From Psychroserpens algicola (GTDB lineage: Bacteria > Bacteroidota > Bacteroidia > Flavobacteriales > Flavobacteriaceae), in the NCBI RefSeq assembly GCF_014526325.1, contig NZ_JACNMJ010000003.1, forward strand, positions 186,001 through 250,000: a DNA stretch of 64,000 bases, written 5' to 3'. The notes beneath the pieces are model-generated. The model searched no databases and was not told the origin of the DNA. It was given only the letters and a program-made list of their open reading frames with translations. Numbering within the stretch: position 1 is the first letter of the stretch; every line of letters begins with the position of its first letter. The position numbers and the translations under genes are program-made. Positions 6,500 to 49,430 of this stretch are shown here, piece by piece.

Positions 6500-8953
6500 G
6501 TGGATTACTTCATTAATGTCATATTACCAATTCCCTTAGAAAAGAGCTTTACGTATGCTATTACAAAAGCAGAAGCCGATTTTTTGAAGCCTGGTATTCG
6601 TGTGTCTGTTCCCTTCGGAAAATCAAAAATTTATACCGCGTTAGTCATCGAAATTCACACCAATGCTCCTTTAGTTTACGAAGCAAAAGAGATTCACCAA
6701 ATACTCGATGAAGTTCCAATTGTGACAACTGAGCAACTAAAACATTGGACTTGGATTTCTAACTATTATATGTGTACCCTGGGAGAGGTGATGCGTGCTG
6801 CTTTGCCAAGTGCTTTTATTTTAGAAAGCGAAACTGTAATTAGTAAAAATGATGAGGTCAGACTTAATGATGAGGACTTAAAAGATGATGAGTTTATTGT
6901 TTACGAAGCCTTACACCATCAGTCTTCGTTAAAAATTCAGGATTTAATGGCAATTCTTGATAAGAAAAATGTATTGCCAGTTATTAAGCGCTTGTTAGAA
7001 AAAAATGTAATTTCAGTTCAAGAAGAAATCTATGAAAAGTATAAACCTAAGTTAGTCCGTTATGTCAAGTTAGGTGCTAATTACTCCTCAGAAAAGTCGC
7101 TGCAAAACTTAATGGAAGATTTAAGCCGTGCGCCAAAACAGAGAGATGTGGTTATGACATTATTTTCTGTTTCTGCGCAAACTAAAAAACCTGTCAAGGT
7201 ATCTGATTTATCTCTGGAAAGTGGTGCGTCATCATCGATTATAAAAACATTAATTGATAAAAGTATTCTTGAAGAATATCATATTCAAACCGATAGAGTT
7301 CAATATGATGGAGGCGATAATGAAGCTTCAAAACATTTAAACGAACACCAAAAGAAAGCTTTAAGTAATATTAGTGAATCTTTTGAAAATCAAAATATTA
7401 CATTATTGCATGGTGTGACATCTTCAGGTAAAACTGAAGTTTATGTTAAGCTCATCGAAGCTCAGCTTGACGCCAATAAACAAGTTTTATATTTATTACC
7501 TGAAATTGCATTAACAACGCAATTGGTCGAGCGTCTTCAAAATTATTTCGGAGAGAAAGTCGCGGTGTTTCACAGTAAGTATTCGTCTCATGAACGTGTT
7601 GAAGTGTGGAATAATGTCCTTCATAATGCACCAACAGCTCAAGTGATTTTAGGAGCCCGTTCATCAGTTTTGTTACCGTTTCAAAATCTAGGACTTATCA
7701 TCGTTGATGAAGAGCACGAATCATCTTATAAGCAGTTTGATCCAGCACCTAGATATCATGCTCGTGACACAGCAATAGTGTTGGCAAGTATTTTCAATAG
7801 TAAAACCCTTTTAGGGTCAGCTACTCCAAGTTTAGAAAGCTATTATAATGCCAAGCAAGGTAAGTACGGTTTAGTAGAATTAAATCATCGTTATAATAAT
7901 GTTCTTATGCCTGATATCGAACTGGTTGATATCAAGGACAAGCATAAACGAAAACGAATGCAAGGTCATTTTAGTGATCGTTTAATAGAGGAAATGACAG
8001 AAACCTTAAAGAATAACCATCAAATTATTCTGTTTCAAAATCGACGCGGTTTTTCTCCGATAGTTGAATGTCAAACTTGCGGACATTCGCCACAATGTCC
8101 TAATTGTGATGTGAGTTTAACTTTTCATCAATATAGAAATCAGTTGCGTTGCCATTATTGTGGCTATCATACAGTCATGCCTAAAACCTGTGATGCTTGT
8201 GGTAGTGTAGAACTAGATAGTAAAGGTTTTGGTACTGAGCAGGTAGAGCAGGAGGCAAAGTTGCTATTTCCTGATCATAATGTGGCTCGTATGGATTTAG
8301 ATACAACCCGAGGTAAGTACGGTTATGAGAAAATTATAACCGCTTTGGAGCAAGGTGAAATTGATATTTTAGTCGGAACGCAAATGCTGACCAAAGGTTT
8401 GGATTTTAGAAATGTAAAATTGGTTGGCATTATGAATGCTGATAATATGCTCAATTTTCCAGATTTCAGAGCGCATGAACGCAGTTATCAGTTAATGGCT
8501 CAGGTATCGGGTAGGGCAGGACGCACTGAAGAACGCGGAAAAGTGCTTATTCAAACCTATAATCCGTATCATAAAATACTTCAGCAAGTCTCAACAAATA
8601 ACTACCAGCAAATGTTTGAAGAGCAATTGGATGAGCGACATATTTATAAATATCCGCCAGTGTTTCGAATGATAAAAATTACGTTGAAGCATAAAGATTA
8701 CAATCGGGTAAATATTGGAGCCGACTGGTATGCGAGATCGCTTCGAACGGTTTTTGACGCCCATGTTTTAGGTCCGGAATATCCTCCAGTAGCTCGTATA
8801 CGTAATCAGTATTTAAAGCATATTTTGGTAAAGATTCCTCAAAAACAATCGCTATCAAAAACAAAAGAAGCTATTATTAAAATAAATAATAGCTTCTTGA
8901 GTGTAAAAGATTTTAGGGCAATAAGAGTAATTTTAAATGTCGATAATTACTAA
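6500..8953 (+). CDS. priA: primosomal protein N' (replication restart helicase PriA)
   Basis: 817-residue superfamily 2 helicase that recognises stalled forks and loads the replisome for restart. Order: N-terminal 3'-DNA-binding domain (VILPIPLEKSFTYAI), winged helix, helicase lobe 1 with Walker A GVTSSGKTE (about 305-313) and DEEH box (near 401), a zinc-binding insert with eight Cys (about 523-565: CQTCGH, CPNC, CHYC, CDAC), helicase lobe 2 (VGTQMLTKGLDF, QVSGRAGR) and C-terminal domain. A GTG at 6500 is the only start that keeps the conserved N-terminus; an ATG two bases earlier is out of frame. A 14-bp perfect inverted repeat lies inside the 3' end of the gene. Confidence 0.97.
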   Translation: MDYFINVILPIPLEKSFTYAITKAEADFLKPGIRVSVPFGKSKIYTALVIEIHTNAPLVYEAKEIHQILDEVPIVTTEQLKHWTWISNYYMCTLGEVMRAALPSAFILESETVISKNDEVRLNDEDLKDDEFIVYEALHHQSSLKIQDLMAILDKKNVLPVIKRLLEKNVISVQEEIYEKYKPKLVRYVKLGANYSSEKSLQNLMEDLSRAPKQRDVVMTLFSVSAQTKKPVKVSDLSLESGASSSIIKTLIDKSILEEYHIQTDRVQYDGGDNEASKHLNEHQKKALSNISESFENQNITLLHGVTSSGKTEVYVKLIEAQLDANKQVLYLLPEIALTTQLVERLQNYFGEKVAVFHSKYSSHERVEVWNNVLHNAPTAQVILGARSSVLLPFQNLGLIIVDEEHESSYKQFDPAPRYHARDTAIVLASIFNSKTLLGSATPSLESYYNAKQGKYGLVELNHRYNNVLMPDIELVDIKDKHKRKRMQGHFSDRLIEEMTETLKNNHQIILFQNRRGFSPIVECQTCGHSPQCPNCDVSLTFHQYRNQLRCHYCGYHTVMPKTCDACGSVELDSKGFGTEQVEQEAKLLFPDHNVARMDLDTTRGKYGYEKIITALEQGEIDILVGTQMLTKGLDFRNVKLVGIMNADNMLNFPDFRAHERSYQLMAQVSGRAGRTEERGKVLIQTYNPYHKILQQVSTNNYQQMFEEQLDERHIYKYPPVFRMIKITLKHKDYNRVNIGADWYARSLRTVFDAHVLGPEYPPVARIRNQYLKHILVKIPQKQSLSKTKEAIIKINNSFLSVKDFRAIRVILNVDNY

Positions 8954-9015
8954 GTTAAAGTCAATTGGTTAAATATTTAACGTTATATCTTCAAACGAAA
9001 TCGTCTTTATTGGCC

Positions 9016-9711
9016 TTAAATATTATTTAATGCGTCTACAAGTTGGGTTTTCTTGTTTCTACTTAATGGAATTTCATAAGCTCCAACTTCAACATTTTTA
9101 CTGTTAAATCGATCAACCTTATCAAGGTTTACAATATAAGATTTATGGATTCTTAGAAATTTACCTTCTGGTAATTCATGTTCGAAAGCTTTCATTGTAG
9201 ATAAAACGACCAAGCTGTTTTCTTCAGTAACTAGTTTTACGTAATCACCAAGTGCTTCAATCCATTTAATATCTTTGATGTAAACTTTTCGTTTTTTCAA
9301 GTTACTTTTGACGAAAATATGTTCGCCATCAGTTTCATTGAAATCTAGCTTAAGTTTATGTTGCTCAAGTGCTTTTTCTACAGACGTATTAAAACGTTCC
9401 CTTGTTATAGGCTTTTGTAGGTAGTCGGTTGCATCATAATTAAAAGCTTTAAACGCGTATTCAGTTTTACCTGTAACGAAAATAATTTGGGGTTTGTTGT
9501 TGAGTACATCGAGCAGTTCAAAACCATTGAGTACAGGCATCTCAATATCTAAGAAGATTAAATCTACTTTATGAGTATTGAGCCCGTTCTTGGTCTCTAA
9601 TGCGCTACTGTATTCTGCAATAAGGTTAAGTGAGGAATGATTCTCAATTAACTTTACAATTGATAATCGTTGAATCGCAGAATCATCAACTACTACACAG
9701 TTTAAAGTCAT
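9016..9711 (-). CDS. orphan LytTR-family response regulator
   Basis: 231 residues from the ATG at 9711, which begins MTLNCVVVDDSAIQR, the usual receiver start; the longer reading adds an atypical 14-residue extension. Receiver domain (1-118) with D9-D10, phospho-acceptor D55 (LIFLDIEMPV) and K105 (LQKPITRE); LytTR DNA-binding domain (about 135-230) with FLRIHKSYIVNL and a final PLSRNKK. No kinase gene adjoins it, so its partner is elsewhere. It is convergent with priA and divergent from rpsF, separated from the latter by 200 bp that contains the ribosomal promoter. Confidence 0.92.
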   Translation of the reverse strand: MTLNCVVVDDSAIQRLSIVKLIENHSSLNLIAEYSSALETKNGLNTHKVDLIFLDIEMPVLNGFELLDVLNNKPQIIFVTGKTEYAFKAFNYDATDYLQKPITRERFNTSVEKALEQHKLKLDFNETDGEHIFVKSNLKKRKVYIKDIKWIEALGDYVKLVTEENSLVVLSTMKAFEHELPEGKFLRIHKSYIVNLDKVDRFNSKNVEVGAYEIPLSRNKKTQLVDALNNI

Positions 9712-36805: not shown

Positions 36806-38110
36806 TTAGCTAACTGCTTCTTTATAAGTTTTTAAACAGCGTTCTCTGGCTTCTTTATGATCAACTATTTGGTCTACATATTCGTCTGTGTCAAACTCTG
36901 GTACATAGGTTTTGATGTATTTTCGGTCTTTATCAAATTTTTCAATTTGAGTTGTCGGATTAAAAATTCTAAAATAAGGAGCAGCATCAACTCCCGAACC
37001 TGCTACCCATTGCCAGTTGCCAACATTACTCGCCATTTCATAATCGTGTAATTTTTCAGCGAAATACGCTTCACCCCAACGCCAATCGATAAGCAGATGT
37101 TTGCATAAAAAGCTACCAACAAGCATGCGAACACGGTTATGCATAAAACCAGTTTTATTAAGTTGACGCATTCCAGCATCAACTAGAGGATAACCTGTTT
37201 TACCTTCACACCACAACTTAAATTCATCTTCATTGTTTCGCCATTCAATGCGATCGTATTTCGGTTTAAACGCCTCTTTAGTGGTCTGTGGAAAATGCCA
37301 AAGAATTTGCATAAAAAACTCTCTCCAAATTAATTCTTGCCAAAAGACTTCATTACTCTCTGCTATGGCTTTTTTTACCATTTTCCGAATACTAACTGTC
37401 CCAAAACGTAAATGCGGACCCAATCTTGAAGTCGCATCTTTAGCTGGGAAATTCCTTGTATCCTCATAAGATTGGATGAGTGTTGGTGTAACTGTATATT
37501 CAGCAATAACCTGATTTGAAGTTTGAAAACCAATATCAGATAAACTTAAATTTGGTAATCGTGTATGCTTTACAAGATTATCGAGATACGCATTAGTATA
37601 GAAAATTTCTAAATCATGGGATTTAAATTTTTCTTTCCAGACTTTCATATAGGGTGTGTAAACAACATAAGGGTCGCCATCTTTTTTAACGACTTCATCT
37701 TTTTCAAAAATAACCTGGTCTTTATAGGTTTTAAATGCGATTCCATTTTCAGATAACATATCACTTACCTTGGTATCACGCTCTTTAGCATAGGGTTCAT
37801 AATCATGATTAGTATAAACTGTATGAATGCTATAAGTTTCTATGAGTTCTTTAAAAATGTCAAGAGGTTTTCCGTGATATATGGCAATACTACTGTCATG
37901 TTCATCTTGAAGCGTTGAGCGCATGCTCTGTAGTGTATTATGAATAAACGTTACTCTTGCATCATCTTCAGGCAGTTGGTCTAATATTTCAGAATCAAAA
38001 ATAAAAATGGGCAATACAGGATGCTCACTTTTTAAGGCTTCATAAAAACCAAGGTTGTCATCTAAGCGTAAATCGCGTCTAAACCAAAAAATATTGATGG
38101 GTTGTGTCAT
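36806..38110 (-). CDS. phrB: class I deoxyribodipyrimidine photolyase
   Basis: 434 residues. Uses FAD and light to split UV-induced cyclobutane pyrimidine dimers. N-terminal antenna-binding alpha/beta domain (NIFWFRRDLRLDDNLGF), C-terminal FAD domain with SRLGPHLRFGTVSIR, WREFFMQILWHFP, MRQLNKTGFMHNRVRMLVGS, and the DYEMASNVGNWQWVAGSG then DAAPYFRIFNPTTQ signature characteristic of class I CPD photolyases. Length slightly shorter than E. coli PhrB (472). Upstream SRPBCC gene is 14 bases away. One of three photolyase/cryptochrome genes in this block. Confidence 0.95.
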   Translation of the reverse strand: MTQPINIFWFRRDLRLDDNLGFYEALKSEHPVLPIFIFDSEILDQLPEDDARVTFIHNTLQSMRSTLQDEHDSSIAIYHGKPLDIFKELIETYSIHTVYTNHDYEPYAKERDTKVSDMLSENGIAFKTYKDQVIFEKDEVVKKDGDPYVVYTPYMKVWKEKFKSHDLEIFYTNAYLDNLVKHTRLPNLSLSDIGFQTSNQVIAEYTVTPTLIQSYEDTRNFPAKDATSRLGPHLRFGTVSIRKMVKKAIAESNEVFWQELIWREFFMQILWHFPQTTKEAFKPKYDRIEWRNNEDEFKLWCEGKTGYPLVDAGMRQLNKTGFMHNRVRMLVGSFLCKHLLIDWRWGEAYFAEKLHDYEMASNVGNWQWVAGSGVDAAPYFRIFNPTTQIEKFDKDRKYIKTYVPEFDTDEYVDQIVDHKEARERCLKTYKEAVS

Positions 38111-38124
38111 AATGTCAAGTGACT

Positions 38125-38592
38125 TTAAATGCTATAGGTTCCAAATAATTCTTCTAATTTTTTTGTGCGATAGTTGAAAATTTCCTCCAGTTTAGGTTTG
38201 ACTAAGATCGGATGTACCAGCTGTCCCAGAATTCCGAAAGGGACTTTGTAGTCAATAATATCTTCCATTTCAACACCACCTTCAATTTCCTTAATAAAAT
38301 GTTTGTGATGCCATAAGGCGTAAGGGCCGAAACGTTGTTCGTCAACAAAATAGTGATTGTCTATACTATGAGTGATTTCAGTAACCCATTTTGTTTTTAT
38401 ACCTAAAACTGGTGTTACAATATATTGTATAATCTGTCCTGCAAACATAGGTCTGTCTGCTCCAGACAAAATGTGAAAGCCCATATAATCAGGTGTTATA
38501 GTCTTAAGGTTATTAGGGTCTGATAAAAACTTCCAAGCAGTCTCCACTGTGATTGGTAAATTTTGTTTTTTATGTAGCCTGTATATTTTCAT
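38125..38592 (-). CDS. SRPBCC family protein (polyketide cyclase/START-like)
   Basis: 155 residues from the ATG at 38592 (MKIYRLHKKQNLPITVETAWKFL), which overlaps nothing but is 1 base past the TspO stop; an ATG 18 bases earlier is possible. Coenzyme Q-binding/START-like fold with SDPNNLKTITPDYMGFHI and VPFGILGQLVHPILV. These proteins bind hydrophobic ligands. In other bacteria homologues travel with photolyase genes. Ligand unknown. Confidence 0.85.
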   Translation of the reverse strand: MKIYRLHKKQNLPITVETAWKFLSDPNNLKTITPDYMGFHILSGADRPMFAGQIIQYIVTPVLGIKTKWVTEITHSIDNHYFVDEQRFGPYALWHHKHFIKEIEGGVEMEDIIDYKVPFGILGQLVHPILVKPKLEEIFNYRTKKLEELFGTYSI

Positions 38593-38593
38593 A

Positions 38594-39055
38594 TTAATTA
38601 TATAAAACAATGTATAAATTTAGTGAGGTGGCTATACAAAGCCAGATAAGGTAGGGAAGTATAAGTGCCGATTTTACTTTTAAATCTTTTGAGTAAGTCA
38701 ATAAAAATGCAGCAACTATAATGGTTAAAAGAATTATAGCAATTAAGCCTAATGTGGTGAGCCTCTGATTGAAAAATATAAAGTTCCAACCTATATTGAG
38801 TAAGAACTGTATAGTGAATAATAGTTTAACTTTGGACGTTGGTCGTATAGAATATAAGAATGCCATATACATTGAAAAACAAATCATGATGGTTGTCCAC
38901 GCGACTCCAAAAACCCATCCATCGGGAGTCCAAGGTGCTTTTGAAAGCGATTGATACCATTCCCCTTGAGGTCCATCAGCCATTAGCCAACTACCAATTC
39001 CTAGAGCTGCAAAATTGATAATTAAAAAGACGATAAATGGCTTAAAGAACTTCAT
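38594..39055 (-). CDS. tspO: TspO/MBR family tryptophan-rich sensory protein
   Basis: 153 residues with five membrane helices and the typical WYQSLSKAPWTPDGWVFGVAW motif (split: PxWxPP-like region near residues 33-50) and YSIRP / NIGWNFIFFNQR. TspO binds porphyrins and in Rhodobacter modulates photosynthesis gene expression in response to oxygen; in others it is a stress factor. Its place among photolyase genes fits a role in handling photosensitising tetrapyrroles. One base separates its ATG from the upstream microprotein stop. Confidence 0.93.
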   Translation of the reverse strand: MKFFKPFIVFLIINFAALGIGSWLMADGPQGEWYQSLSKAPWTPDGWVFGVAWTTIMICFSMYMAFLYSIRPTSKVKLLFTIQFLLNIGWNFIFFNQRLTTLGLIAIILLTIIVAAFLLTYSKDLKVKSALILPYLIWLCIATSLNLYIVLYN

Positions 39056-39056
39056 T

Positions 39057-39227
39057 TTAATGATTTTGTAATAATTCTATTTGCTCTTGAATTTTATTAG
39101 CTTCAGCATATTTTTTGTCACTCTCTGCTCGATTTGTGGTCGATAATGCATGCCACTCTTTCATTAGCTTTTCGTACTTTTTTTGAAGTTTTTCAACCTC
39201 CGATGTGTTTTTGAATAATCCAAACAT
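39057..39227 (-). CDS. Lacal_2735 family microprotein
   Basis: 56 residues: MFGLFKNTSEVEKLQKKYEK (opening), then LMKEWHALSTTNRAESDKKY and a helical end AEANKIQEQIELLQNH. An amphipathic, probably coiled-coil protein of a flavobacterial small family I recall as Lacal_2735; function unknown. It is too short for most gene callers but is tightly nested: its stop is one base before the tspO ATG, and its start is 6 bases after the glutathione peroxidase stop, so it is clearly part of the unit. Confidence 0.82.
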   Translation of the reverse strand: MFGLFKNTSEVEKLQKKYEKLMKEWHALSTTNRAESDKKYAEANKIQEQIELLQNH

Positions 39228-39233
39228 GATTAA

Positions 39234-39716
39234 TTATTTTAAGTGCTTTGTAATTTTTGAACTCGCTGGAGATGTAATTGAATAGTAATAATCTATTAAT
39301 TCACCATCAGGACTAATCAGATATTTCTGAAAATTCCATTTCACTTTGGAGTTCGTTATGCCGTTTTTATTTTTTTGAGTGAGCCAAGTATATAACGGGT
39401 GTTGTTGACTGCCTTTAACGTCTATTTTTTCTGTTATAGGAAACGTAACGCCATAGTTAATTTCGCAAAAGGATTCTATTTCACTGGCATTTCCTGGTTC
39501 TTGCATTCCAAATTGATTGCATGGGACGCCTATAACAATAAGATCATCCTTATATGTATCATAAAGGCTTTGTAAGTCCTTATACTGAGATGTGAAACCA
39601 CATTTTGATGCTACATTGACTAAAAGTATAAATTTTCCTTTGAAATTTGAAAGCGATAAAGGTACTCCGTTAAGGCTGTTGATTTCAATATCATATATAG
39701 ATGTTTTTTCTATCAT
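39234..39716 (-). CDS. glutathione peroxidase family protein (Cys type)
   Basis: 160 residues from the ATG at 39716 (MIEKTSIYDIEINSLNG); an ATG at 39752 would add 12 residues, and longer readings run into the upstream SDR gene. Thioredoxin-fold peroxidase with the redox-active Cys39 in LLVNVASKCGFTSQY, the GVPCNQFGMQEPG motif and the WNFQKYLI motif (catalytic tetrad partners Gln and Trp). Bacterial enzymes of this class usually use thioredoxin and reduce lipid or hydrogen peroxide. Fits the oxidative side of the photoprotection unit. Confidence 0.92.
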   Translation of the reverse strand: MIEKTSIYDIEINSLNGVPLSLSNFKGKFILLVNVASKCGFTSQYKDLQSLYDTYKDDLIVIGVPCNQFGMQEPGNASEIESFCEINYGVTFPITEKIDVKGSQQHPLYTWLTQKNKNGITNSKVKWNFQKYLISPDGELIDYYYSITSPASSKITKHLK

Positions 39717-39774
39717 ATGTGAATGTTTAGTTTTTGAAAAGAGTGTTACCATAAAAAAGCTAACAGGTTTATAA

Positions 39775-40458
39775 TTATAGTTTAAAGCTAACAATACCAC
39801 AATCCATTTCAAAGACTTGCCCAGAAATAGGACTCGATTTTTCTGATAATAAAAATTCTGCCATTTCGGCGACGTCTTTTGGTTGTAAGAACTTTTTCAT
39901 GGGATGTCGCTCTGTAATATTCTCAATCATTTTATCATTACGTAATAGTTTTGAAGCTAAATCGGTGTTTGTAACTGTTGGTGCAATTGCGTTAATTCTT
40001 AATGTTGTCGCTAGTTCGGCACCCAAAGATTTCACCAAGCCTTCAACACCAGATTTAGCAGCAGCAATGCTAGCATGATAAGGCATACCTAATTTTGCTG
40101 CAACAGTACTAAACAATACAATTGAAGGAGATTCGCTGTGTTTTAAACAACTTAGATAGTGCTGTATGGCTTTTACGGCACCAATGACGTTAATTTCATA
40201 ATCGTCTCTAAAATCTTCCAGACTTAATCTCCCTATTGGTTTTAAGTTGATACTACCAGGACAATACACCAATCCATCCGCACTTTTGATTTCAGGAAGT
40301 TCATCATTAAGTATATCACACTTGTAATGCGTTAAATTTTGATGAGATTGCTCAGGTGCTGTTCTACTTAAGTTAATTACCTTGTGATTTTGAAGTAAAT
40401 TATTGGTTAATGCGTTACCAATACCCTTACTGCCTCCAATAATGATGTATGTTTTCAT
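39775..40458 (-). CDS. short-chain dehydrogenase/reductase
   Basis: 227 residues, classical SDR: NAD(P)-binding IIGGSKGIGNAL at residues 5-16, Asn in YCPGSIN, catalytic Ser (STVAAKLG) and Tyr/Lys region. The segment MPYHASIAAAKSGVEG has H-A-S-I where the usual YxxxK has Tyr, so the catalytic Tyr may be shifted or replaced; Lys is present. Substrate unknown. A terminator-like hairpin lies in the 82-base gap upstream. Confidence 0.88.
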   Translation of the reverse strand: MKTYIIIGGSKGIGNALTNNLLQNHKVINLSRTAPEQSHQNLTHYKCDILNDELPEIKSADGLVYCPGSINLKPIGRLSLEDFRDDYEINVIGAVKAIQHYLSCLKHSESPSIVLFSTVAAKLGMPYHASIAAAKSGVEGLVKSLGAELATTLRINAIAPTVTNTDLASKLLRNDKMIENITERHPMKKFLQPKDVAEMAEFLLSEKSSPISGQVFEMDCGIVSFKL

Positions 40459-40769: not shown

Positions 40770-41465
40770 TTAATTATTTATATAGTTGTGTAATTCTGCG
40801 ATTTTTTCTGGTGTATTAAATTGTCCGCCATAGTAAGTCGTAACCGTTGCTGAAGTATTATCTTTTATGCCTCTGGAAGACACACATAGATGTTTAGCAT
40901 CAATAATGACAGCGACGTCTTCGGTATTTAAAACAGCTTTTAATTCTTCGGCAATTTGGTTGGTCAAACGTTCTTGAACCTGAGGTCGTTTAGCGTAATA
41001 CTGTACAATTCTGTTCAGTTTTGATAGCCCTATAACTTTTCCGGAAGAGATATAAGCCACATGAGCTTTTCCTATTATTGGGACAAAGTGATGCTCGCAA
41101 TTAGAATAAAACGTGATAGATTTTTCAACCAGCATCTGATGGTATTGATACTTGTTATCAAATAAGGCGATTTGTGGTTTGTTTTTAGGGTTTAGGCCTG
41201 AAAATATTTCGTCAATATACATTTTAGCCACACGTTTAGGTGTTCCTTTCAGAGAATCATCTGTTAAATCTAAACCCATGACATCCATGATTTCTTCAAA
41301 CAGAATAGCAATGCGCTGCTTTTTTTCGTCATCACTTAATTTAAAAGCGTCTGCTTTCATTGGAGTTTGCAGACCAGTGTACATATGGTCTTCGCCAATG
41401 TCTTCTGTAGAGAAATTTGCAAGGCTCTGACCGTTAATTTTTGATTTTAAAGTTTTGGTATTCAT
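40770..41465 (-). CDS. folE: GTP cyclohydrolase I
   Basis: 231 residues. Converts GTP to dihydroneopterin triphosphate, first step to folate and pterins. Zinc ligands Cys123 and His126 (NCEHHF) and Cys194 (KHLCVSSRG) match the family with a 13-residue offset from E. coli (Cys110, His113, Cys181). The N-terminal 40 residues are an extension. Its presence inside a photolyase block fits supply of pterin or methenyltetrahydrofolate antenna; light-induced folE genes beside photolyases are known in LitR regulons of other bacteria. A hairpin with two arms lies just upstream. Confidence 0.96.
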   Translation of the reverse strand: MNTKTLKSKINGQSLANFSTEDIGEDHMYTGLQTPMKADAFKLSDDEKKQRIAILFEEIMDVMGLDLTDDSLKGTPKRVAKMYIDEIFSGLNPKNKPQIALFDNKYQYHQMLVEKSITFYSNCEHHFVPIIGKAHVAYISSGKVIGLSKLNRIVQYYAKRPQVQERLTNQIAEELKAVLNTEDVAVIIDAKHLCVSSRGIKDNTSATVTTYYGGQFNTPEKIAELHNYINN

Positions 41466-41518: not shown

Positions 41519-41791
41519 TTATCGTTTTGAAATCGAGTTTTGGGTGATTTGTTTTTGCCTTGAGCATTTGAAACGACCTTCTTGAAATGACCGAAGTTTT
41601 TCGTGTTTGGTTTTTCGACCTTGAACCCGCTTGCGCCACATTTTGAAACTTTTGGTTGTCATTTCTTTACGCATGAGCTCGATAACTTCCTGTTCTTTCA
41701 AACCAAATTGAAATTGTATAGCTTCAAATGTGGTTCTATCTTCCCAAGCCATTTCTATAATTCTATCTGTCGTTCTTATATCTAATTCCAT
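41519..41791 (-). CDS. TIGR03643 family protein (DUF2805)
   Basis: 90 residues opening MELDIRTTDRIIEMAWEDRTTFEAI, then a helix-turn-helix-like FGLKEQEVIELMRKEM and WRKRVQGRKTKH. This is the TIGR03643/DUF2805 family, whose members are almost always found beside photolyase or cryptochrome genes; its molecular role is not established. Five bases separate its ATG from the stop of the preceding unknown gene. Confidence 0.88.
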   Translation of the reverse strand: MELDIRTTDRIIEMAWEDRTTFEAIQFQFGLKEQEVIELMRKEMTTKSFKMWRKRVQGRKTKHEKLRSFQEGRFKCSRQKQITQNSISKR

Positions 41792-41796
41792 ACATT

Positions 41797-42222
41797 TTAA
41801 AACTGAAAACTGTATTGTTCGTCATGCTTTATTTTGGCATTCATTAATTTCTTAAAAAAAGTAGCATTCTCTTTGAATGTTTTAGTATTGCTAAAACGAA
41901 TAAATTTTCCTTGGGCATGAATACTCGTACCATTAGTTTTGTACAAAACAAGTTGATAATAAGGAATGACCCAAGTGTAATTTTTAAGCCCTTTGTTGAT
42001 GTAAATTAATATGCCATTTGGTCGCATTTCTATATTAGCATAATTGATGTCGGAAACTACGTTTAAATACTGTTCCATATTAGGGCTCACCTGCTCAATA
42101 ATCATACGCTTAGAACCAACGCCTCCCATTTTGAGCGCTTCAAAAAACGAATATGGTTTACCAATCAAATCAGCAATGATATGCTTGTGCTCTTTCTGAG
42201 TATAAGTGGAGTTGAGTATCAA
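41797..42222 (-). CDS. unknown protein heading photoprotection unit B
   Basis: 141 residues, soluble, mixed alpha/beta with strands such as GILIYINKGLKNYTWVIPYYQLVLY and a repeat-free, aromatic-rich core; no signal peptide. I do not recognise the family. It is the first gene after the shared 40-bp element, with the next gene 5 bases away, so it belongs to the photoprotection unit. The PYYQLVLYKT segment resembles PH-like folds but this is only an impression. Confidence 0.75.
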   Translation of the reverse strand: MILNSTYTQKEHKHIIADLIGKPYSFFEALKMGGVGSKRMIIEQVSPNMEQYLNVVSDINYANIEMRPNGILIYINKGLKNYTWVIPYYQLVLYKTNGTSIHAQGKFIRFSNTKTFKENATFFKKLMNAKIKHDEQYSFQF

Positions 42223-42242: not shown

Positions 42243-42295
42243 CAAATTTACAAAATGTTTAATGTTTTTTGTTAATCATTAAACAAAAATTAACA
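42243..42295 (-). promoter_or_regulatory. shared bipartite operator and promoter, copy 2 (unit B)
   Basis: Plus-strand order: CAAATTTA (42243-42250; on the coding strand the -7 box TAAATTTG), 5 bases, TGTTTAAT (42256-42263), 15 bases, TTAAACAAAAATTAACA (42279-42295). TGTTTAATG and CATTAAACA make a perfect 9-bp inverted repeat. The same arrangement precedes unit A. It lies 20 bases upstream of the unit B start codon. Confidence 0.72.
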
Positions 42296-42382
42296 TAATT
42301 ATAGGATTAATCATCTGCTTTGGATGTATATATTTGATTTTCAAATGATTAAAAATTATATTGAATTTAAGATTTAGCCTTG

Positions 42383-43915
42383 TTAGTAACTGTTTTGATG
42401 TGTAATAATATCTTGCGCCTTTTCTTTTATCTGTTGAAGATCTTGTGGATTCATTTTATCTAATATATTATACATCATTCCCATTCTGAAATTATCACCT
42501 AATTGATCTCGTTTATCATCTAAGAAATTCCAATACAGACTATTAAACGGACAAGCATCATCACCAATTTTTTTATTTTTATTATAGTGGCAAGACTTAC
42601 AATAGTTGCTCATTTTGTTGATATATGATCCTGAAGAGACATAAGGCTTGGTGGCAATTTGTCCGCCATCAGCAAATTGACTCATGCCTCTGGTATTTGG
42701 TAATTGCACCCATTCTATAGCATCTACATAGATTCCAAGATACCAGGCATCAACGTCATCAGGATTGGTTTGCGTTAATAAGGCGTAATTCCCTGTAATC
42801 ATCAATCGTTGAATATGATGCGCATAACCATTGTCAAGAGAATTGGTGATAGCATGCTTAAGGCAATTCATTTTGGTGTCACCAGTCCAGAAAAAATCAG
42901 CTAGTGAATTATGATTCTCTAATTCATTTTTAGATTTATAATCTGGCATTAAAGCCCAATACATACCTCTCATGTATTCCCTCCAGCCAATAACTTGCCT
43001 TATAAATCCTTCAACTTGCGAAATGTGAATGGCATCGCTATGTTTCCTGTAGTAATTCATTACTGTAGTAACAACATCTCTGGGAGATAACAATTTTAAA
43101 TTCATAGCAAATGATAAGCGTGAATGAAATAAATACGTTTCATCTGTGTGCATCGCATCCTGATAATCGCCAAAATGAACTAAAAGTGTTTCACAAAAAT
43201 ATTTAAGTTGTTTTAACGCTTGAGGCCTTGTAATAGGGTAGGAGAATGTTTTAGTTTCTAAGCGTCCAAATGTCTTAATTTGTGCTGTTTCTATATCTGT
43301 TTGTACTTCGGAAACATCATTTTTAAACAATTTATAAGTTGGTATGTCAACATCGCCTTTCCAAGTATTTCTATTGCTTTTATCATAGTTCCATTGTCCT
43401 CCTTCTGGCTGATCACTAATCATTAAAATATCATGCTTTTTGCGCATATCTCTGTAGAAATTTTCCATGAGATATTGTTTTTTTCCTTTAAAAAATTGAG
43501 CTAAGTCCTGACGTTTTGTGTAGAAATGCTCTACGGAAACAGCTTTTGATTCAAATTGGAGTGCTTTGCACAAAGTTTTAAGCTGAAGGTCTAAACGGTA
43601 CTCATCAGGTTGGATATATTCAAAACACTCGATATCGTGACGTTCAATTAATAACTTTAAGTTTTTAGTAAGGTCTTGCGTATTTTGTGTGTCGTTAATT
43701 CTGAAGTATTCGATATGATGACCTTCAGAAGCAACAGTCTTTGAAAATTCACGCATGGCAGCAAAAAAGCCAATTACTTTTTGAATGTGGTGCTTAACGT
43801 AGTCGGTTTCCTGGCGCATTTCAAACATACAGTAAGTCACATCTTTGGTAGTGCTTTTAAACCACGAATGCTTAATGTTGAGTTGGTCACCTAATATGAG
43901 CCTTAATGTTTTCAT
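42383..43915 (-). CDS. iron-sulfur bacterial cryptochrome/photolyase (FeS-BCP)
   Basis: 510 residues. Cryptochrome/photolyase of the FeS-BCP (prokaryotic 6-4 photolyase, PhrB-like) class. Four cysteines C351, C439, C442 and C455 fit the cluster ligands Cys350, 438, 441 and 454 reported for Agrobacterium PhrB with an offset of one. Other marks: opening LRLILGDQLN, WREYMRGMYW, and QFADGGQIATKPYVSSGSYI at the FAD site. This class uses a dimethyl-ribityllumazine antenna and repairs 6-4 photoproducts. It stops one base before the DASH gene start and ends unit A. Confidence 0.95.
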   Translation of the reverse strand: MKTLRLILGDQLNIKHSWFKSTTKDVTYCMFEMRQETDYVKHHIQKVIGFFAAMREFSKTVASEGHHIEYFRINDTQNTQDLTKNLKLLIERHDIECFEYIQPDEYRLDLQLKTLCKALQFESKAVSVEHFYTKRQDLAQFFKGKKQYLMENFYRDMRKKHDILMISDQPEGGQWNYDKSNRNTWKGDVDIPTYKLFKNDVSEVQTDIETAQIKTFGRLETKTFSYPITRPQALKQLKYFCETLLVHFGDYQDAMHTDETYLFHSRLSFAMNLKLLSPRDVVTTVMNYYRKHSDAIHISQVEGFIRQVIGWREYMRGMYWALMPDYKSKNELENHNSLADFFWTGDTKMNCLKHAITNSLDNGYAHHIQRLMITGNYALLTQTNPDDVDAWYLGIYVDAIEWVQLPNTRGMSQFADGGQIATKPYVSSGSYINKMSNYCKSCHYNKNKKIGDDACPFNSLYWNFLDDKRDQLGDNFRMGMMYNILDKMNPQDLQQIKEKAQDIITHQNSY

Positions 43916-45226
43916 TTAAAATAGTGTGTCTTGTAACCATAAGTTTTGAAATCTACCATTGGCATCATAACGCTCGGCTTGTAATTTGACATTGAATTTT
44001 CGGTCTCTTGGGTCATTTCCAACACCAGCAACATACATCCAGTTTCCGTAGTTGCTATGTACATCATAATCGATAAGCATGGATTCAAAATACGCGGCAC
44101 CAATACGCCAGTCTAAATGCATGTCTTTGGCAAAGTAAGACGCTACATTTTGCCGACCTCTATTGCTCATCCAGCCGGTTTTGGCGAGTTCAATCATATT
44201 CGCATTTACAAAATGTGATGGTGTAGTTCCGTTAATCCACTTTTTGATCTGATTTTCATTTTGATACCAATCATAATCTTTATGGAGAATACCACCAAGT
44301 TTGAAAATGTCATTTTGATGTTTCAAAGCAATGTATTTAAAATAGTCTCTCCATATAAGTTCAAAAATGAGCCAGTAGGTTGATTCATTTTTAATGTGTT
44401 TGTCTTCAAATGTTTTAATTTGCCAATAAATGGTTCTGGCAGAAATACTACCATTGGCTAACCAAGGTGAGAACTTTGAACTAAAATCTACTCCAACTAA
44501 GCCATTTCGTGTTTTTTTATAGGAGGCTATTTTTTTAGATTTAAAAAAATAATTATCAAGTCTTTGTGTGGCATTTGTTTCGCCACCCTCAAAAGGAAAA
44601 GCGCTGTTAGGGTGTTTGTCAAACACTTCAAAACCTAATTCCTGAAGTGTAGGAGCATAAGTGTCATTAGTAATCTCGCTAATTTGTTCAGATGGAGAAT
44701 TGATAGTAACAGGTCTAACTGTACTATTTAACTCCACATTTTTTCTAAACCTGGTAAAGACTTCAGGGATTTCATCAAACGACATCTGAATGTCATCTGG
44801 GTGAAATAAAAACTGATCGTAATATTCGTGAAATATAATCGTATTCGGTAAGCTGGATTTTGTTCTTGCTAATGTTTGGACTTCTTCATCTGTCCATTCC
44901 TTTTGTAAGTATATGGAAGAAATCGAGAATGTATCTACTAAGTTTTTTATAGCGTTTTCAGGGGTGTCTATGGCTATAAACAACTCGATGTTGAGTTGCT
45001 TTAGGTTGGTTTTTAACTGGTTAATGGTTTCAATCAAAAATTGAGTTCTGTAGCGTTCGGTTTTTTTAAAACCAAATTTAGAAATGCTATACTGTTTAGG
45101 ATCAAAACAATAACAAGCTATAAGGTGCTTATGATTTGAAATGGCCTGATTGAGTGTATAATTATCTTGAACTCTTAAGTCGTTTCTAAACCAAATTAAT
45201 CCTATGTTGTCTTGTTTCTTCTGCAC
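43916..45226 (-). CDS. DASH-family cryptochrome/photolyase
   Basis: 436 residues. N-terminal antenna domain ([19 protein letters not shown]), FAD domain with [38 protein letters not shown], and the DASH-type end region [21 protein letters not shown] with [18 protein letters not shown] proteins bind FAD and methenyltetrahydrofolate and repair dimers in single-stranded DNA; some also signal. Its start overlaps the DUF2256 gene by 25 bases and its stop abuts the FeS-BCP start. Confidence 0.94.
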
Positions 45227-45345
45227 TTTTCACTACAATATTTTACATGTTCCCAGTTCTTTGCCCACTTCTTTCTCCAGTTAAATGTGAGTCCGCAAGT
45301 TGGACACTGTTTTTCTGGAAGATGTTGTTTTTTATGATTAGACAT
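45202..45345 (-). CDS. DUF2256 zinc-ribbon-like microprotein
   Basis: 47 residues, overlooked by length filters: [34 protein letters not shown], and CSEKCRRNK. Two CxxC pairs (PTC and SEKC) predict a zinc-binding fold. DUF2256 proteins regularly neighbour cryptochromes. It overlaps the SDR gene stop by 8 bases upstream and the DASH start by 25 bases downstream, so the three are tightly coupled. Function unknown. Confidence 0.85.
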
Positions 45346-46762
45346 CGACAAGCTTATTAATCATACCTTTAAAAATTAAGCCATGAAACGGTAAAACGCT
45401 ATACCAGTACAAGCGTCCCCAAAGTCCACGAGGTCTAAACGTTGCTGTTTGTTTGAGTAAACCGTCTTCGATTTTAAATTCCAGCCAGGCTTCACCAGGC
45501 AGGCGCATTTCAGCATAGAGTAGAAGCTTTTTTTGAACTTTATCGACAAATATGACGCGCCAAAAATCCAATGCATCTCCAGCATCAAGTTGTGTCGGAC
45601 TTGTTCGTCCGCGACGCAAACCAATACCACCAAAAAGTTTGTCTATATAACCTCTAATTTTCCATAAAAAAGTACCATAATACCATCCTGTGGTGCCACC
45701 AATACGCCAGATTTTGTCAATAGTTTTTTCAGAATTTATGACAGGACGCTCTTTATAGTCCTGAAAACAACCGTACTTAGGAACATTCACGTATTTATGA
45801 AGGTTGTTTCTTAACCGACCACTACTTACCATAGAATCTTTCCAACTGGAAATGATACTATTCTGTTCTATCTTTTCAAATGCGTGTTCTACAGCTGCTT
45901 TATATGAAATAGGTTCTACCTGAAGTAAGGTGTTTATTTGACTTGGTTTTCCAATAATTTGAACACCCATACTATCAACGAGACTGGTTGCTAGTTTGTA
46001 AGAAGTAGATGTGACAAAATATAGCCAGTAGGATGATAATTTTGGAGTCATTACTGGGACTGTCAATATATAACGCTTTAATCCTCTCACTTCGGCAAAT
46101 TGTAAGAGCATTTGTTTGTAGGTTAAAACTTCAGGGCCAAACACATCAAATGATTTGTTATAGACCTTTTCAAAACCAACACTGCGATGTAAAAAGCTTA
46201 GAACATCTCTTACAGCAAGCGGTTGCGTTTTGGTATTTAGCCATTTTGGAGCAATCATAAACGGTAACTTTTCGACTAAATCTCTGATGATTTCAAAAGA
46301 AGAGCTTCCGGAGCCAACAATAATTCCTGCTTTAAAAATGGTAAGAGCATAGGCGTCAGACTTCAGTAGATTCTCAACATTTTTACGAGACTGAAGATGC
46401 TTAGATAAATTATCTTCGTTTGTAATCCCGCTTAAATAAATAACTTGTTTAACTATTGTTTTTTCAAGTTGATTTTTGAAGTTTTTTGCACAGCGTTCTT
46501 CAAGAGATTCGAAATCTTTAGAGGAATTAGACATGGAGTGAATGAGATAGAACGCAACGTCGATATCATCCGGAATAGAATGAAGTGTTTCAGGTTTTAA
46601 AAAATCGGCTTCAATAACATCGATTGAGGCTTCTTCAGCATAACTTTTATCGGCTCGTAATTTGTCTCTTACGGCACATACAACTTGGTGGTCGTCATTT
46701 GCTAATAACGGAATTAAACGCTTTCCAATATAACCTGTTGCTCCAGTAACCAGAATTTTCAT
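45338..46762 (-). CDS. SDR-family NAD(P)-binding protein with DUF2867 domain
   Basis: 474 residues. N-terminal extended-SDR Rossmann domain ([33 protein letters not shown]), about 1-300, followed by a DUF2867 domain (about 310-474) with [27 protein letters not shown] split near residue 350 and [21 protein letters not shown], and the end [10 protein letters not shown]. This fusion is a regular companion of photolyase clusters in Bacteroidota and Proteobacteria. Substrate unknown. Overlaps the flavin reductase start by 4 bases. Confidence 0.9.
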
Positions 46763-47385
46763 GACAAATCAGTTTTTGGTCTTTGGTATGCAAAGCGTGA
46801 TTTTAATTCGGGAATTGCGTAGCCATCCAAACCATTAATTGTGGCTACATTTCCTTTTGATAAATTTATAAACCCATCATCTTCAAGTAATTCGTTATCA
46901 ACATGTAATCCCATAATTTCTCCAATGACAAGGATGGTATCATTAGCTTTGATGTGATATTCTTCAACAAATTTCATGGCTAATTGGAGCGGAGCACCTT
47001 TGACGAAAGGCGCATAGAACTCATGTTTATATTCTGAAATGAGCTGTGTTTTATCAAATTCGGAAATATCTGAATCGTATTTGGCCGACGTATGATGCGC
47101 ATCTTCTAAAATAGGTTCATGAATATGGTTAATGGTATAAAATCCTGTAGACTTTATATTTTCATAGGTATGTCTCAATACCGTTGTTGGTCTACAGAAA
47201 AATCCAAGCATAGGCGGATTTGAACCTATATGGGTCACAGAACTAAATACAGCAACATTTTCTATGTCATTTTTAGATTTTGTACCTAATAAATTAGCCG
47301 ATTTGTAACCCGAACAACTATTGATTAAGTTAATGCGGTATACATGATGAAAGTTGTTCAACGCTTCATTGCTAATATAAGTCAT
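46759..47385 (-). CDS. flavin reductase-like domain protein
   Basis: 208 residues of the flavin reductase-like (FMN-binding split barrel) family: GYKSANLLGTKS, VAVFSSVTHIGSNPPMLGFFCRP, VLRHTYENIKSTGFYTINHI (parts). Such proteins bind FMN and reduce flavins with NAD(P)H. In this context it could keep the photolyase flavins reduced, which is inference. It overlaps the kinase-like gene by one base. Confidence 0.87.
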   Translation of the reverse strand: MTYISNEALNNFHHVYRINLINSCSGYKSANLLGTKSKNDIENVAVFSSVTHIGSNPPMLGFFCRPTTVLRHTYENIKSTGFYTINHIHEPILEDAHHTSAKYDSDISEFDKTQLISEYKHEFYAPFVKGAPLQLAMKFVEEYHIKANDTILVIGEIMGLHVDNELLEDDGFINLSKGNVATINGLDGYAIPELKSRFAYQRPKTDLS

Positions 47386-48695
47386 TATAAGGTTTTAAAA
47401 TTATTGATTTTGATGTCCTTGGCTTTTAAATCAAACATAAGATTGTATAGTCCAAAAAATGTTCTGTTGATGTAAATAAAATGTTTAGAACCACGATTAC
47501 CATTCATTTTTCTGAGTTCCGTACTTTTTGAATAACGTTCACCCAATTCGGCTATTTTTCCAAAAAAATCACCATCAGAAAAGTCGAAGGTTTTAGCATG
47601 AAAAGGCTGTGTGAACAGGCTTAGCATTTCGTGGAACATATCAGTGAAAAAAGCGATTTCGTTAGGTGTATCGTCTGGTCGTAATATTTCAAGTTGGTAT
47701 AGTTTTTCAATAAAATAATCACGATTATTAATATTGTCTTTTTCAGCTAATTCAAAATATGGGATATAGAATTCATTCGGAATGGTTTTCATACAGCCAA
47801 AATCGAGCGCAATCAATTGTCCGTTTTCAGATACCAAAAAGTTACCTGGATGCGGATCGGCATGTACCTTCTTTAATTTGTGAATCTGAAACATATAAAA
47901 ATCCCAAAGCGCTTGACCTAATTGGTTTGAAAATTCCTGATTGGTATTATGAGCTGTAAACTCTGAAAGGTGCTCACCAACCATATAATCCATAGTGATG
48001 ATACGGTCTGAAGATAAGTCTTCGTAATATTTGGGGAATAAGAGATTAGGAATATGAGCGCAATTTTGAGCAATTTCTTTACTCTGCTTAACTTCTAGAA
48101 TGTAATCGGTCTCTTCAATGAGTTTGCTTTCGACCTCTTTAAAATATTTGTCAGAATCTTTTCCTTTAATATTAAACATACTCATGGCTATGGGTTTTAC
48201 CATGGCGAGATCTGAAGCGATACTTTCTGCAACTCCTGGATATTGGATTTTCACAGCAAGTTTCTTCCCGTTTTTTTCTGCAATATGGACTTGTCCTATA
48301 CTGGCAGCATTAACAGAAGTTGCATTGAAGGTATCATAGATGTCACTTGGCAATTTTCCAAAGTAAGTTTTAAATGTTTTAAGAACCAGAGGAGCAGATA
48401 AGGGTGGTACAGAAAACTGCGCCAGAGAAAACTTTTCTACATAAGCCTGAGGTAATATGCTTTTTTCCATACTGAGCATTTGTGCTACTTTAAGAGCGCT
48501 GCCTTTGAGTTGTTTTAAACCATTGTATATGTCGTCAGCATTATTTTGATTGAGGCGTTCTTTAGCTTCGTTCTCTGTTTTAGTTAATTTGTCTCCATAG
48601 TATTTAAGATAATTAACTCCAACTTTTGCTCCTGTAGAAACCAGCTTTGTAGCTCTTTGTATTTTTGATGTAGGGATGTTGTCTATAGTTTTCAT
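47385..48695 (-). CDS. ABC1/AarF (UbiB-like) atypical kinase
   Basis: 436 residues of the ABC1/UbiB family: N-terminal LKGSALKVAQMLSME (KxGQ-like motif near residue 68), LAVKIQYPGVAESIA (catalytic Lys near residue 128), ETDYILEVKQSKEIA, HADPHPGNFLV and LALDFGCMK (DFG motif). Such proteins support isoprenoid quinone biosynthesis or lipid homeostasis as unusual ATPases. Following the TetR gene by 8 bases, it is the second gene of unit A. Its role in a photoprotection unit is unknown; redox quinone maintenance is a guess. Confidence 0.9.
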   Translation of the reverse strand: MKTIDNIPTSKIQRATKLVSTGAKVGVNYLKYYGDKLTKTENEAKERLNQNNADDIYNGLKQLKGSALKVAQMLSMEKSILPQAYVEKFSLAQFSVPPLSAPLVLKTFKTYFGKLPSDIYDTFNATSVNAASIGQVHIAEKNGKKLAVKIQYPGVAESIASDLAMVKPIAMSMFNIKGKDSDKYFKEVESKLIEETDYILEVKQSKEIAQNCAHIPNLLFPKYYEDLSSDRIITMDYMVGEHLSEFTAHNTNQEFSNQLGQALWDFYMFQIHKLKKVHADPHPGNFLVSENGQLIALDFGCMKTIPNEFYIPYFELAEKDNINNRDYFIEKLYQLEILRPDDTPNEIAFFTDMFHEMLSLFTQPFHAKTFDFSDGDFFGKIAELGERYSKSTELRKMNGNRGSKHFIYINRTFFGLYNLMFDLKAKDIKINNFKTL

Positions 48696-48703
48696 AGGAA
48701 AGT

Positions 48704-49360
48704 TTAATGCATTTGTACTTTTTCTTTAAAAATGAATTTCCCAAAGTCAATAAGGCTTTTTAGTGGAGCAATATTTAGAACATCAAAACTTGTGTTTACA
48801 GATTTTTCAATGAAAATATCGGTTTTTTCAAATCCAGGAGAGGTGTCGTCCATCCAAAACTTCATTGTTATCAGCAACTGCATCCAGGCAGTTTCTTTTA
48901 ATCCGCGACGTTGAATCTTATCTATTTGTTCTTGCTTGGTGTCTATAAGCTCAATCTCTAGTTGTGCTATATAATTTGTGAAAGCCTGCTTCAGTTGAGA
49001 CAGTAATGTTAAACCCTTTAAACTGTGTTTATGTCGTTCTAATGCATGTTTAACATAGCTGCGATTAGCAGTCAAGTTTTCAAAAAAAGTGAAATAAAAA
49101 CTTAAGAGTTTATTTCTTGCATCAAAATTAGTATAATCCTCGCTTTTTTCTAATATGGAAATAGTGTTGTGGAAAAAAGCATAAAAAATATGCTTTTCAA
49201 TGGCTTCAAATGACCCAAAATGCTCATAGAATTTTTGTTCTTCAAAATGATTTGCCTTTGCAAATGCGTATACCGTTTTAGGTTGAGTATTATGCTCCAA
49301 AACATAATCCATATAAAACGTAATAATGTCTGTGTTAGAGATAGTCTTCTTTTTTGCCAT
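48704..49360 (-). CDS. TetR-family transcriptional regulator
   Basis: 218 residues. N-terminal helix-turn-helix (about 1-55) with the TetR-type KTVYAFAKANHFEEQKFYEHFGS and a helical ligand/dimerisation domain with a TetR C-terminal pattern. It is the first gene of unit A and lies directly downstream of copy 1 of the 40-bp element, so autoregulation and control of both units are plausible. Its ligand cannot be seen. A MerR-type light receptor (LitR/CarH) that controls similar genes elsewhere is absent from this window. Confidence 0.86.
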   Translation of the reverse strand: MAKKKTISNTDIITFYMDYVLEHNTQPKTVYAFAKANHFEEQKFYEHFGSFEAIEKHIFYAFFHNTISILEKSEDYTNFDARNKLLSFYFTFFENLTANRSYVKHALERHKHSLKGLTLLSQLKQAFTNYIAQLEIELIDTKQEQIDKIQRRGLKETAWMQLLITMKFWMDDTSPGFEKTDIFIEKSVNTSFDVLNIAPLKSLIDFGKFIFKEKVQMH

Positions 49361-49378
49361 GTTTCATAAATTGTGTAG

Positions 49379-49430
49379 TAAAGATACGATTGTTTAATAT
49401 ATTTTGTATAATGTTAAACAAAATTTAACA
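49379..49430 (-). promoter_or_regulatory. shared bipartite operator and promoter, copy 1 (unit A)
   Basis: Plus-strand order: TAAAGATA (49379-49386; TATCTTTA on the coding strand, a -7-like box), 4 bases, TGTTTAAT (49391-49398), 15 bases, TTAAACAAAATTTAACA (49414-49430). TTGTTTAA and TTAAACAA form an 8-bp inverted repeat. Position and spacing match copy 2 before unit B, 19 bases upstream of the TetR start codon. Confidence 0.72.

Follow-up and report, generated by a model that had tools for sequence, protein, structure and literature searches.

A 30-bp inverted repeat in two photoprotection promoters of Psychroserpens algicola is a probable operator of a LitR/CarH-type regulator

Which protein reads the element shared by the promoters of two photoprotection gene units in the flavobacterium Psychroserpens algicola? 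The window analysed here is the whole stretch of 64,000 nucleotides from contig NZ_JACNMJ010000003.1 (positions 186,001 to 250,000, assembly GCF_014526325.1), and coordinates count from its first letter unless another contig or locus is named. Unit A begins with a tetR gene and unit B with a gene of no assigned family. A preliminary description of the window had noticed the same arrangement of about 40 bp upstream of both genes and offered three binders: the TetR protein, a trans-acting LitR/CarH-type protein or an alternative sigma factor. The best reading of the sequences is that the element is a flavobacterial LitR/CarH operator in the form of a 30-bp inverted repeat, and we give a probability of roughly 0.8 to its being the operator for a LitR/CarH-type repressor whose gene lies elsewhere in the genome. 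What was computed is that the sites form one small shared set, that this set tracks a LitR-type regulator, and that operators and recognition helices differ in matching ways. We infer physical binding and, by analogy with the LitR/CarH family, repression rather than activation and control by B12 and light.

Both elements were located as described, reading on the minus strand at 42256-42295 (unit B) and 49391-49430 (tetR), and the count of 24 identical positions out of 25 in their outer parts was reproduced. The unit B operator (42256..42287) has the palindrome core TTTGTTTAAT-N14-ATTAAACA, with arms at 42278-42285 and 42256-42263, and the unit A operator (49391..49422) has the core TTTGTTTAAC-N14-ATTAAACA, with arms at 49413-49420 and 49391-49398; both have 0 mismatches. 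The adjoining -7 boxes, also on the minus strand, are TAAATTTG (42243..42250, palindrome offset +36) and TATCTTTA (49379..49386, offset +35). Neither promoter has the normal TTG at -33, as the preliminary description had stated: no TTG was seen 17-23 bp before either -7 box in the stretches covered, where TTGs lie at 32 and 42 bp for tetR and at 33 and 0 bp for unit B.

The conserved core of the element is the inverted repeat; its outer half-site is genuine but local. An outer direct half-site 10 bp upstream of the distal arm reads TGTTAAT at unit B (42289..42295, minus strand) and TGTTAAA at tetR (49424..49430, minus strand). At tetR it occurs in all 21 genomes of the genus and in 5 of 19 others. 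It is an accessory feature: a survey of half-site spacing, which took site orientation from the contig and not from the gene, covered 106 sites of every kind and showed it at a spacing of 10 bp in 19. A further half-site had been described 14 bp after the first; it recurs in at most 3 of the 106 sites in either orientation and is not conserved. The survey likewise gave no support, as a general rule, to the suggestion of four half-sites for one tetramer. The strict 40-bp form, TGTTTAAT-N15-TTAAACAAAAWTTAACA, has two matches in the 3.8-Mb genome at up to three mismatches, against none for the reversed control. Within the window, the core at up to two mismatches gave four matches, which are the two sites on both strands (0.23 expected), and none of 100 shuffles of the window reached that number.

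A relaxed core, TTTGTTTAAY-N14-RTTAAACA, was defined from these promoters and searched for in the whole genome. It has exactly four perfect sites, at the unit A tetR gene, unit B, a fasciclin lipoprotein gene and the carotenoid cluster. The earlier remark that no other promoter carries a copy holds within the window but fails for the genome, which has two further perfect cores. At one mismatch there were 7 real matches against 2 for the reversed control; three one-mismatch matches are the same places on the opposite strand. At up to three mismatches the count is at background level (110 against 136). The degenerate pattern TTGTTWAA-N16-TTWAACAA is already at background at one mismatch in this genome (9 against 9), so the stricter core alone was used for genome counts.

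The site at the carotenoid cluster links the element to a regulator. It lies between a litR-type gene and crtI, so that a perfect core precedes the first gene of the cluster. The regulator, with a MerR DNA-binding domain and a B12-binding domain, is encoded at contig C17:24081-24977, directly upstream of crtI. The cluster encodes an Amino_oxidase-family protein (read as CrtI), a phytoene-synthase-family protein, a 149-aa open reading frame (ORF) labelled CrtZ by eye that has no Pfam match, and a lycopene-cyclase-family protein. The crtI start codon directly follows the operator and the -7 box lies within it (L125:3003-3035); the crtI transcript may be leaderless or nearly so. The litR start codon is overlapped by a partial palindrome, TTGTTTAA...ATGAACAA (L065:1477-1508), and from this arrangement litR is likely autoregulated, with the second arm inside its coding sequence. 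Past the cluster come two further genes (L125:7618-8499 and 8572-9312), which encode an anti-sigma-K-like (RskA_C) protein and a regulator of the Crp family. The fourth perfect site (L126:2424, which is G000:C12:228923) is in a divergent promoter between the fasciclin lipoprotein gene and a gene for a MORN-repeat protein.

The regulator fits the tested sequence and fold features of the LitR/CarH family, and adenosylcobalamin binding and release by light are predicted for it. Its N-terminal domain is of MerR type (PF13411, E 5.2e-15; PF00376, E 2.9e-9) and is accompanied by the helical B12-binding domain PF02607, over the cut-off; PF02310 was not reported at E 0.001. The W-x9-EH motif is represented by W143, E153 and H154, invariant in 12 sequences. 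For the ExHxxG motif, EVHELG aligns with ERHEIG of TtCarH, and E191, H193 and G196 are invariant in the 12; the motif is missing from 1 of 12 proteins of a separate set (G062). The regulator matches the sequence of CarH structure 5c8d at E 1.1e-13. A predicted model of the Psychroserpens jangbogonensis orthologue (mean predicted local distance difference test score 87.4) has full-length CarH as its best 12 hits in the PDB, with template modelling scores of 0.49-0.59 by query length. The root-mean-square deviations of 8.8-14.6 mean that domain placement differs.

We surveyed 146 related genomes for the core, the regulator and TetR. Close orthologues of the regulator (LitR-1) were matches at E <=1e-50, a split chosen after the list was seen, and hits were counted on both strands, so that a single palindrome may score 2. 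Of the 75 genomes with a close orthologue, 73 had at least two core hits, against 4 of the 71 without (Fisher P 6e-34, relatedness not corrected); within the same family the counts were 64 of 64 and 1 of 23, respectively. Among 80 named litR loci, every one of which has Ile in the recognition helix, a palindrome at up to one mismatch occurs within 250 bp after litR in 28 (0 of 80 in a single shuffle of each), and a partial palindrome at up to two mismatches occurs at the start of litR itself in 61. If the element were instead the operator of the unit A TetR, which would regulate its own gene and control unit B, its presence at the tetR promoter would be explained; at least two hits do occur in 61 of 69 genomes with TetR and 16 of 77 without. 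However, 14 of 15 genomes that have LitR-1 and lack TetR retain sites. The region upstream of tetR was surveyed in 60 of the 69 TetR-bearing genomes; a core with no more than two mismatches was found there in 41 of 51 genomes with LitR-1, P. algicola included, and in 1 of 9 without. The sole exception, G047, keeps a GTT element at tetR and has a regulator of a second subfamily, LitR-2, with Ile in its recognition helix. Sites also precede crtI and, in partial form, litR. Site presence does not track the tetR gene, and we consider TetR a very improbable binder; the core tracks the LitR/CarH-type regulator better than it does TetR.

The position of the palindrome relative to the promoter bears on the remaining alternatives. 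With the -7 box taken as TAnnTTT[GA] and offsets measured from the palindrome start, the offset is -5 at litR in 81 of 87 loci with a palindrome (110 examined), +16 after litR, mostly at crtI, in 52 of 55 (110 examined), and +16 at fasciclin genes in 13 of 21 (24 examined). At tetR it is +35 or +36 in 39 of 43 loci (60 examined), and all 8 of the fetched unit B orthologues, each retrieved through the core, have +36. The steps between classes are 20-21 bp, or two helical turns. Since the box shares TTTG with an arm at -5 and +16, the regularity there partly follows from the arm sequence, which is not so at +36. These three offset classes leave no fixed spacing for an alternative sigma-factor promoter, and the adjoining box is of the ordinary TAnnTTTG form. 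Such a promoter would suit the missing TTG at -33, the sigma genes found beside litR in four genomes of other families (described below) and the anti-sigma-K-like gene near the carotenoid cluster, but no sigma factor was among the seven proteins of the P. algicola crt stretch given to Pfam, the other ORFs there not having been searched. We rate this explanation lower still than TetR. Activation by LitR, or activation combined with repression, is unlikely to a lesser degree. Promoters without a -33 TTG may need help, and an activator site could likewise sit ahead of the -7 box, where the palindrome is at tetR and unit B. Against this, the arms straddle the -7 box at crtI and fasciclin genes and the palindrome runs into the start codon at litR, both of which should block polymerase, and published accounts treat CarH and PmlR2 as repressors (PMC8156234, PMC9758184). 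The operator overlaps the promoter, with the -7 box inside the palindrome or about 4-5 bp beyond it, and the crtI start codon directly follows the operator in several species. Repression by LitR would be the simplest common mode, because the operator positions at crtI and litR cover the expected region of transcription start.

Of the three binders first offered, the LitR/CarH-type protein is thus strongly favoured by co-occurrence, by the position of litR next to the crtI site, and by matched changes in operator and regulator. The last of these came from LitR-2, whose recognition helix reads HT[LI]R-K-WE (PTLRKWE in one case), with Lys in place of Ile after Arg. Six of the weaker same-family MerR matches are LitR-2 proteins encoded beside fasciclin genes, one of them beside crtI too. 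We compared 60 regulator loci, 30 ranking best for LitR-2 and 30 for LitR-1, in which the residue after the recognition-helix Arg is Lys in 19 and Ile in 41; this residue falls in helix 21-31 of a structure predicted for a close orthologue. At the Lys loci, the GTC palindrome TTGTCWAA-N16-TTWGACAA occurs near the gene in 15 of 19 at up to two mismatches (14 at one) and is absent from 4. At the Ile loci, the GTT palindrome occurs in 39 of 41 (29 at one mismatch) and is absent from 2, and the GTC form occurs in none; GTT matches at the start of litR-1 itself have two mismatches. The two forms also differ at target promoters. In G060, the tetR promoter has its usual -7 box and the GTC form TTGTCTAAT...GTTAGACA, and at unit B the -7 box is in place and a single arm is altered; in G054, a GTC palindrome precedes SRPBCC-photolyase genes. 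Both genomes of genus g26 encode a LitR-2 with Ile, and in neither was a GTC site found near the gene.

Classical MerR proteins exert their effect from within the -35/-10 spacer, whereas the palindrome here is 30 bp wide and its placement relative to the -7 box varies in steps of 20-21 bp. A (pseudo)palindromic operator overlapping the promoter is common to both (PMC8156234). The CarH proteins of Thermus thermophilus, Bacillus megaterium and Myxococcus share with this regulator the MerR and B12-binding domains, W-x9-EH, ExHxxG and the fold along the chain, and their systems share the carotenoid-gene neighbourhood, an operator over the promoter and TnnACA in the half-sites (PMC9304148, PMC8156234). 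After the motif Trp, TtCarH has His and the regulator here has Gln. Among the class II LitR proteins of Pseudomonas, PplR1 and PmlR2 resemble the present system in their light-inducible photolyase, cryptochrome and FolE genes and in two spaced half-sites over the promoter, but these half-sites are TGTACA-N12-TGTACA; reported regulons include phrB, folE, cryB and an SDR gene (PMC9758184). In the top-ranked results of the open-licence literature, we found no LitR/CarH operator or regulon from Bacteroidetes. Carotenoids are light-induced in Chryseobacterium lacus, and the authors speculate on a LitR-like role for one gene (PMC7064467). MliR of Bizionia argentinensis is not the same regulator, being described as a 109-residue protein without an effector domain.

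Several observations weigh against a LitR/CarH operator as proposed here. Known CarH operators consist of three to four tandem 11-bp direct repeats (PMC9304148, PMC8156234), and the authors of work on Myxococcus xanthus CarA suggest that direct repeats are recognised and not the inverted repeats proposed earlier (PMC9304148). The element here is a wide inverted repeat without 11-bp repeats: CarH-type repeats nnnnTnnACAn were rejected, since among the 106 sites TnnACA/TGTnnA recurs 11 bp apart in 1 to 3 at each position. The sequences suggest a CarH-like protein that would use an inverted repeat. The core was defined from these very promoters, G098 and G139 carry the regulator and have zero core hits, and the tetR operator at up to two mismatches is absent from 10 of 51 LitR-1 genomes, all with TetR identity of at most 54%. 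As for specificity, two of the 19 Lys loci (G302, G325) also have a GTT match at two mismatches, a mixed GTT/GTC palindrome occurs in 1 of the 80 named Ile loci (L330), and G047 combines LitR-2 with GTT sites, including the operator at tetR, and has GTTAGACA upstream of its crtI as well. In 21 LitR-2 genomes both patterns exceed their controls (GTC, 59 against 31; GTT, 113 against 75). GTC is therefore not exclusive genome-wide, and the claim for it rests on the sites adjacent to litR-2 and on the G060 promoters. Finally, the Ile/Lys difference largely splits two clades, so there are few independent changes, and many other residues differ between the subfamilies.

The genes behind the two promoters, all on the minus strand, were named from Pfam and NCBIfam labels, and operon limits were inferred from spacing. 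Unit A starts with tetR (TetR_C_23, 48704..49360), whose product has no sequence match in the PDB at E 0.01, and continues with an ABC1/UbiB-like kinase (47385..48695), a flavin reductase-like protein (46759..47385) and an SDR-DUF2867 protein (45338..46762). From their spacing, a DASH cryptochrome (43916..45226, TIGR02765) and, at the end, a photolyase-related protein (DPRP, 42383..43915, PF04244) probably belong to it. The first gene of unit B (41797..42222) encodes a product without a Pfam or NCBIfam match, and its orthologues are preceded by the core in 8 loci; a distant relative (22% identity, E 2.6e-8) adjoins a litR-like gene in G125, of another family (L215:1552-2013). A DUF2805/TIGR03643 protein (41519..41791) and GTP cyclohydrolase I (FolE, 40770..41465) follow, and SDR, GSHPx, TspO, SRPBCC (below the cut-off) and DNA photolyase genes (36806..40458) probably make up the remainder.

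In relatives, we examined 80 distinct perfect sites from 79 loci of chosen genomes in which the core was already known (a 22-genome set minus one G066 site, plus P. algicola C12, G039 and G041), counting a site as near a gene when it lay at most 300 bp ahead of the ORF start or at most 40 bp within the ORF. Fasciclin genes were the commonest neighbours (20 of 80), ahead of tetR (13), unit B (8), crtI (8), KatG-like (6) and LacI (4) genes and one each for SRPBCC, flavin reductase, TspO and DUF2867-SDR, 63 sites in all; KatG-like and LacI genes were assigned by sequence motif, with one of the six and one of the LacI set checked with Pfam. The other 17 sites were near other genes (15) or no gene (2). 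Tandem palindromes about 43 bp, or four helical turns, apart occur at G066:C3:283200, G056:C1:29498, G039:C3:325306, G041:C6:26343 and G070:C11:302752; fasciclin genes adjoin them in G066, G056, G039 and G041, the four cases that were read. In four genomes of the same genus as P. algicola (L155, L170, L182, L188), a perfect core stands a short way ahead of a LacI-family regulator gene that is divergent from a long ORF, of outer-membrane type by eye; these sites may reflect an unexpected link to sugar uptake or belong to another protein. An extracytoplasmic function sigma gene (by Pfam) stands beside litR in four genomes of other families, G099, G124, G139 and G116 (L127, L195, L213, L214), and in G099 and G124 a perfect core is found at this gene.

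Under the proposed mechanism, the promoters of unit A (at tetR), unit B, crtI and the fasciclin lipoprotein gene, and probably that of litR itself, would each be covered by LitR bound to the inverted repeat TGTTTAAY-N14-RTTAAACA. In the dark, bound LitR would block RNA polymerase. Light would destroy the bound adenosylcobalamin and release LitR, allowing joint expression of carotenoid, photolyase/cryptochrome and peroxidase genes. A broader proposal, to which we give somewhat below even odds, is that flavobacteria evolved an operator code of their own for LitR/CarH: a 30-bp inverted repeat whose position with respect to the -7 box is quantised in units of two helical turns (-5, +16, +36), with Ile or Lys setting GTT or GTC and photoprotection regulons re-keyed upon a change of subfamily. 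Across a large bacterial group, the site set joins genes for photolyase, cryptochrome, pterins, peroxidase and carotenoids in a single predicted light regulon that would be B12-based and whose operator is readable, and names a single recognition-helix residue, Ile or Lys, as a candidate switch of its specificity.

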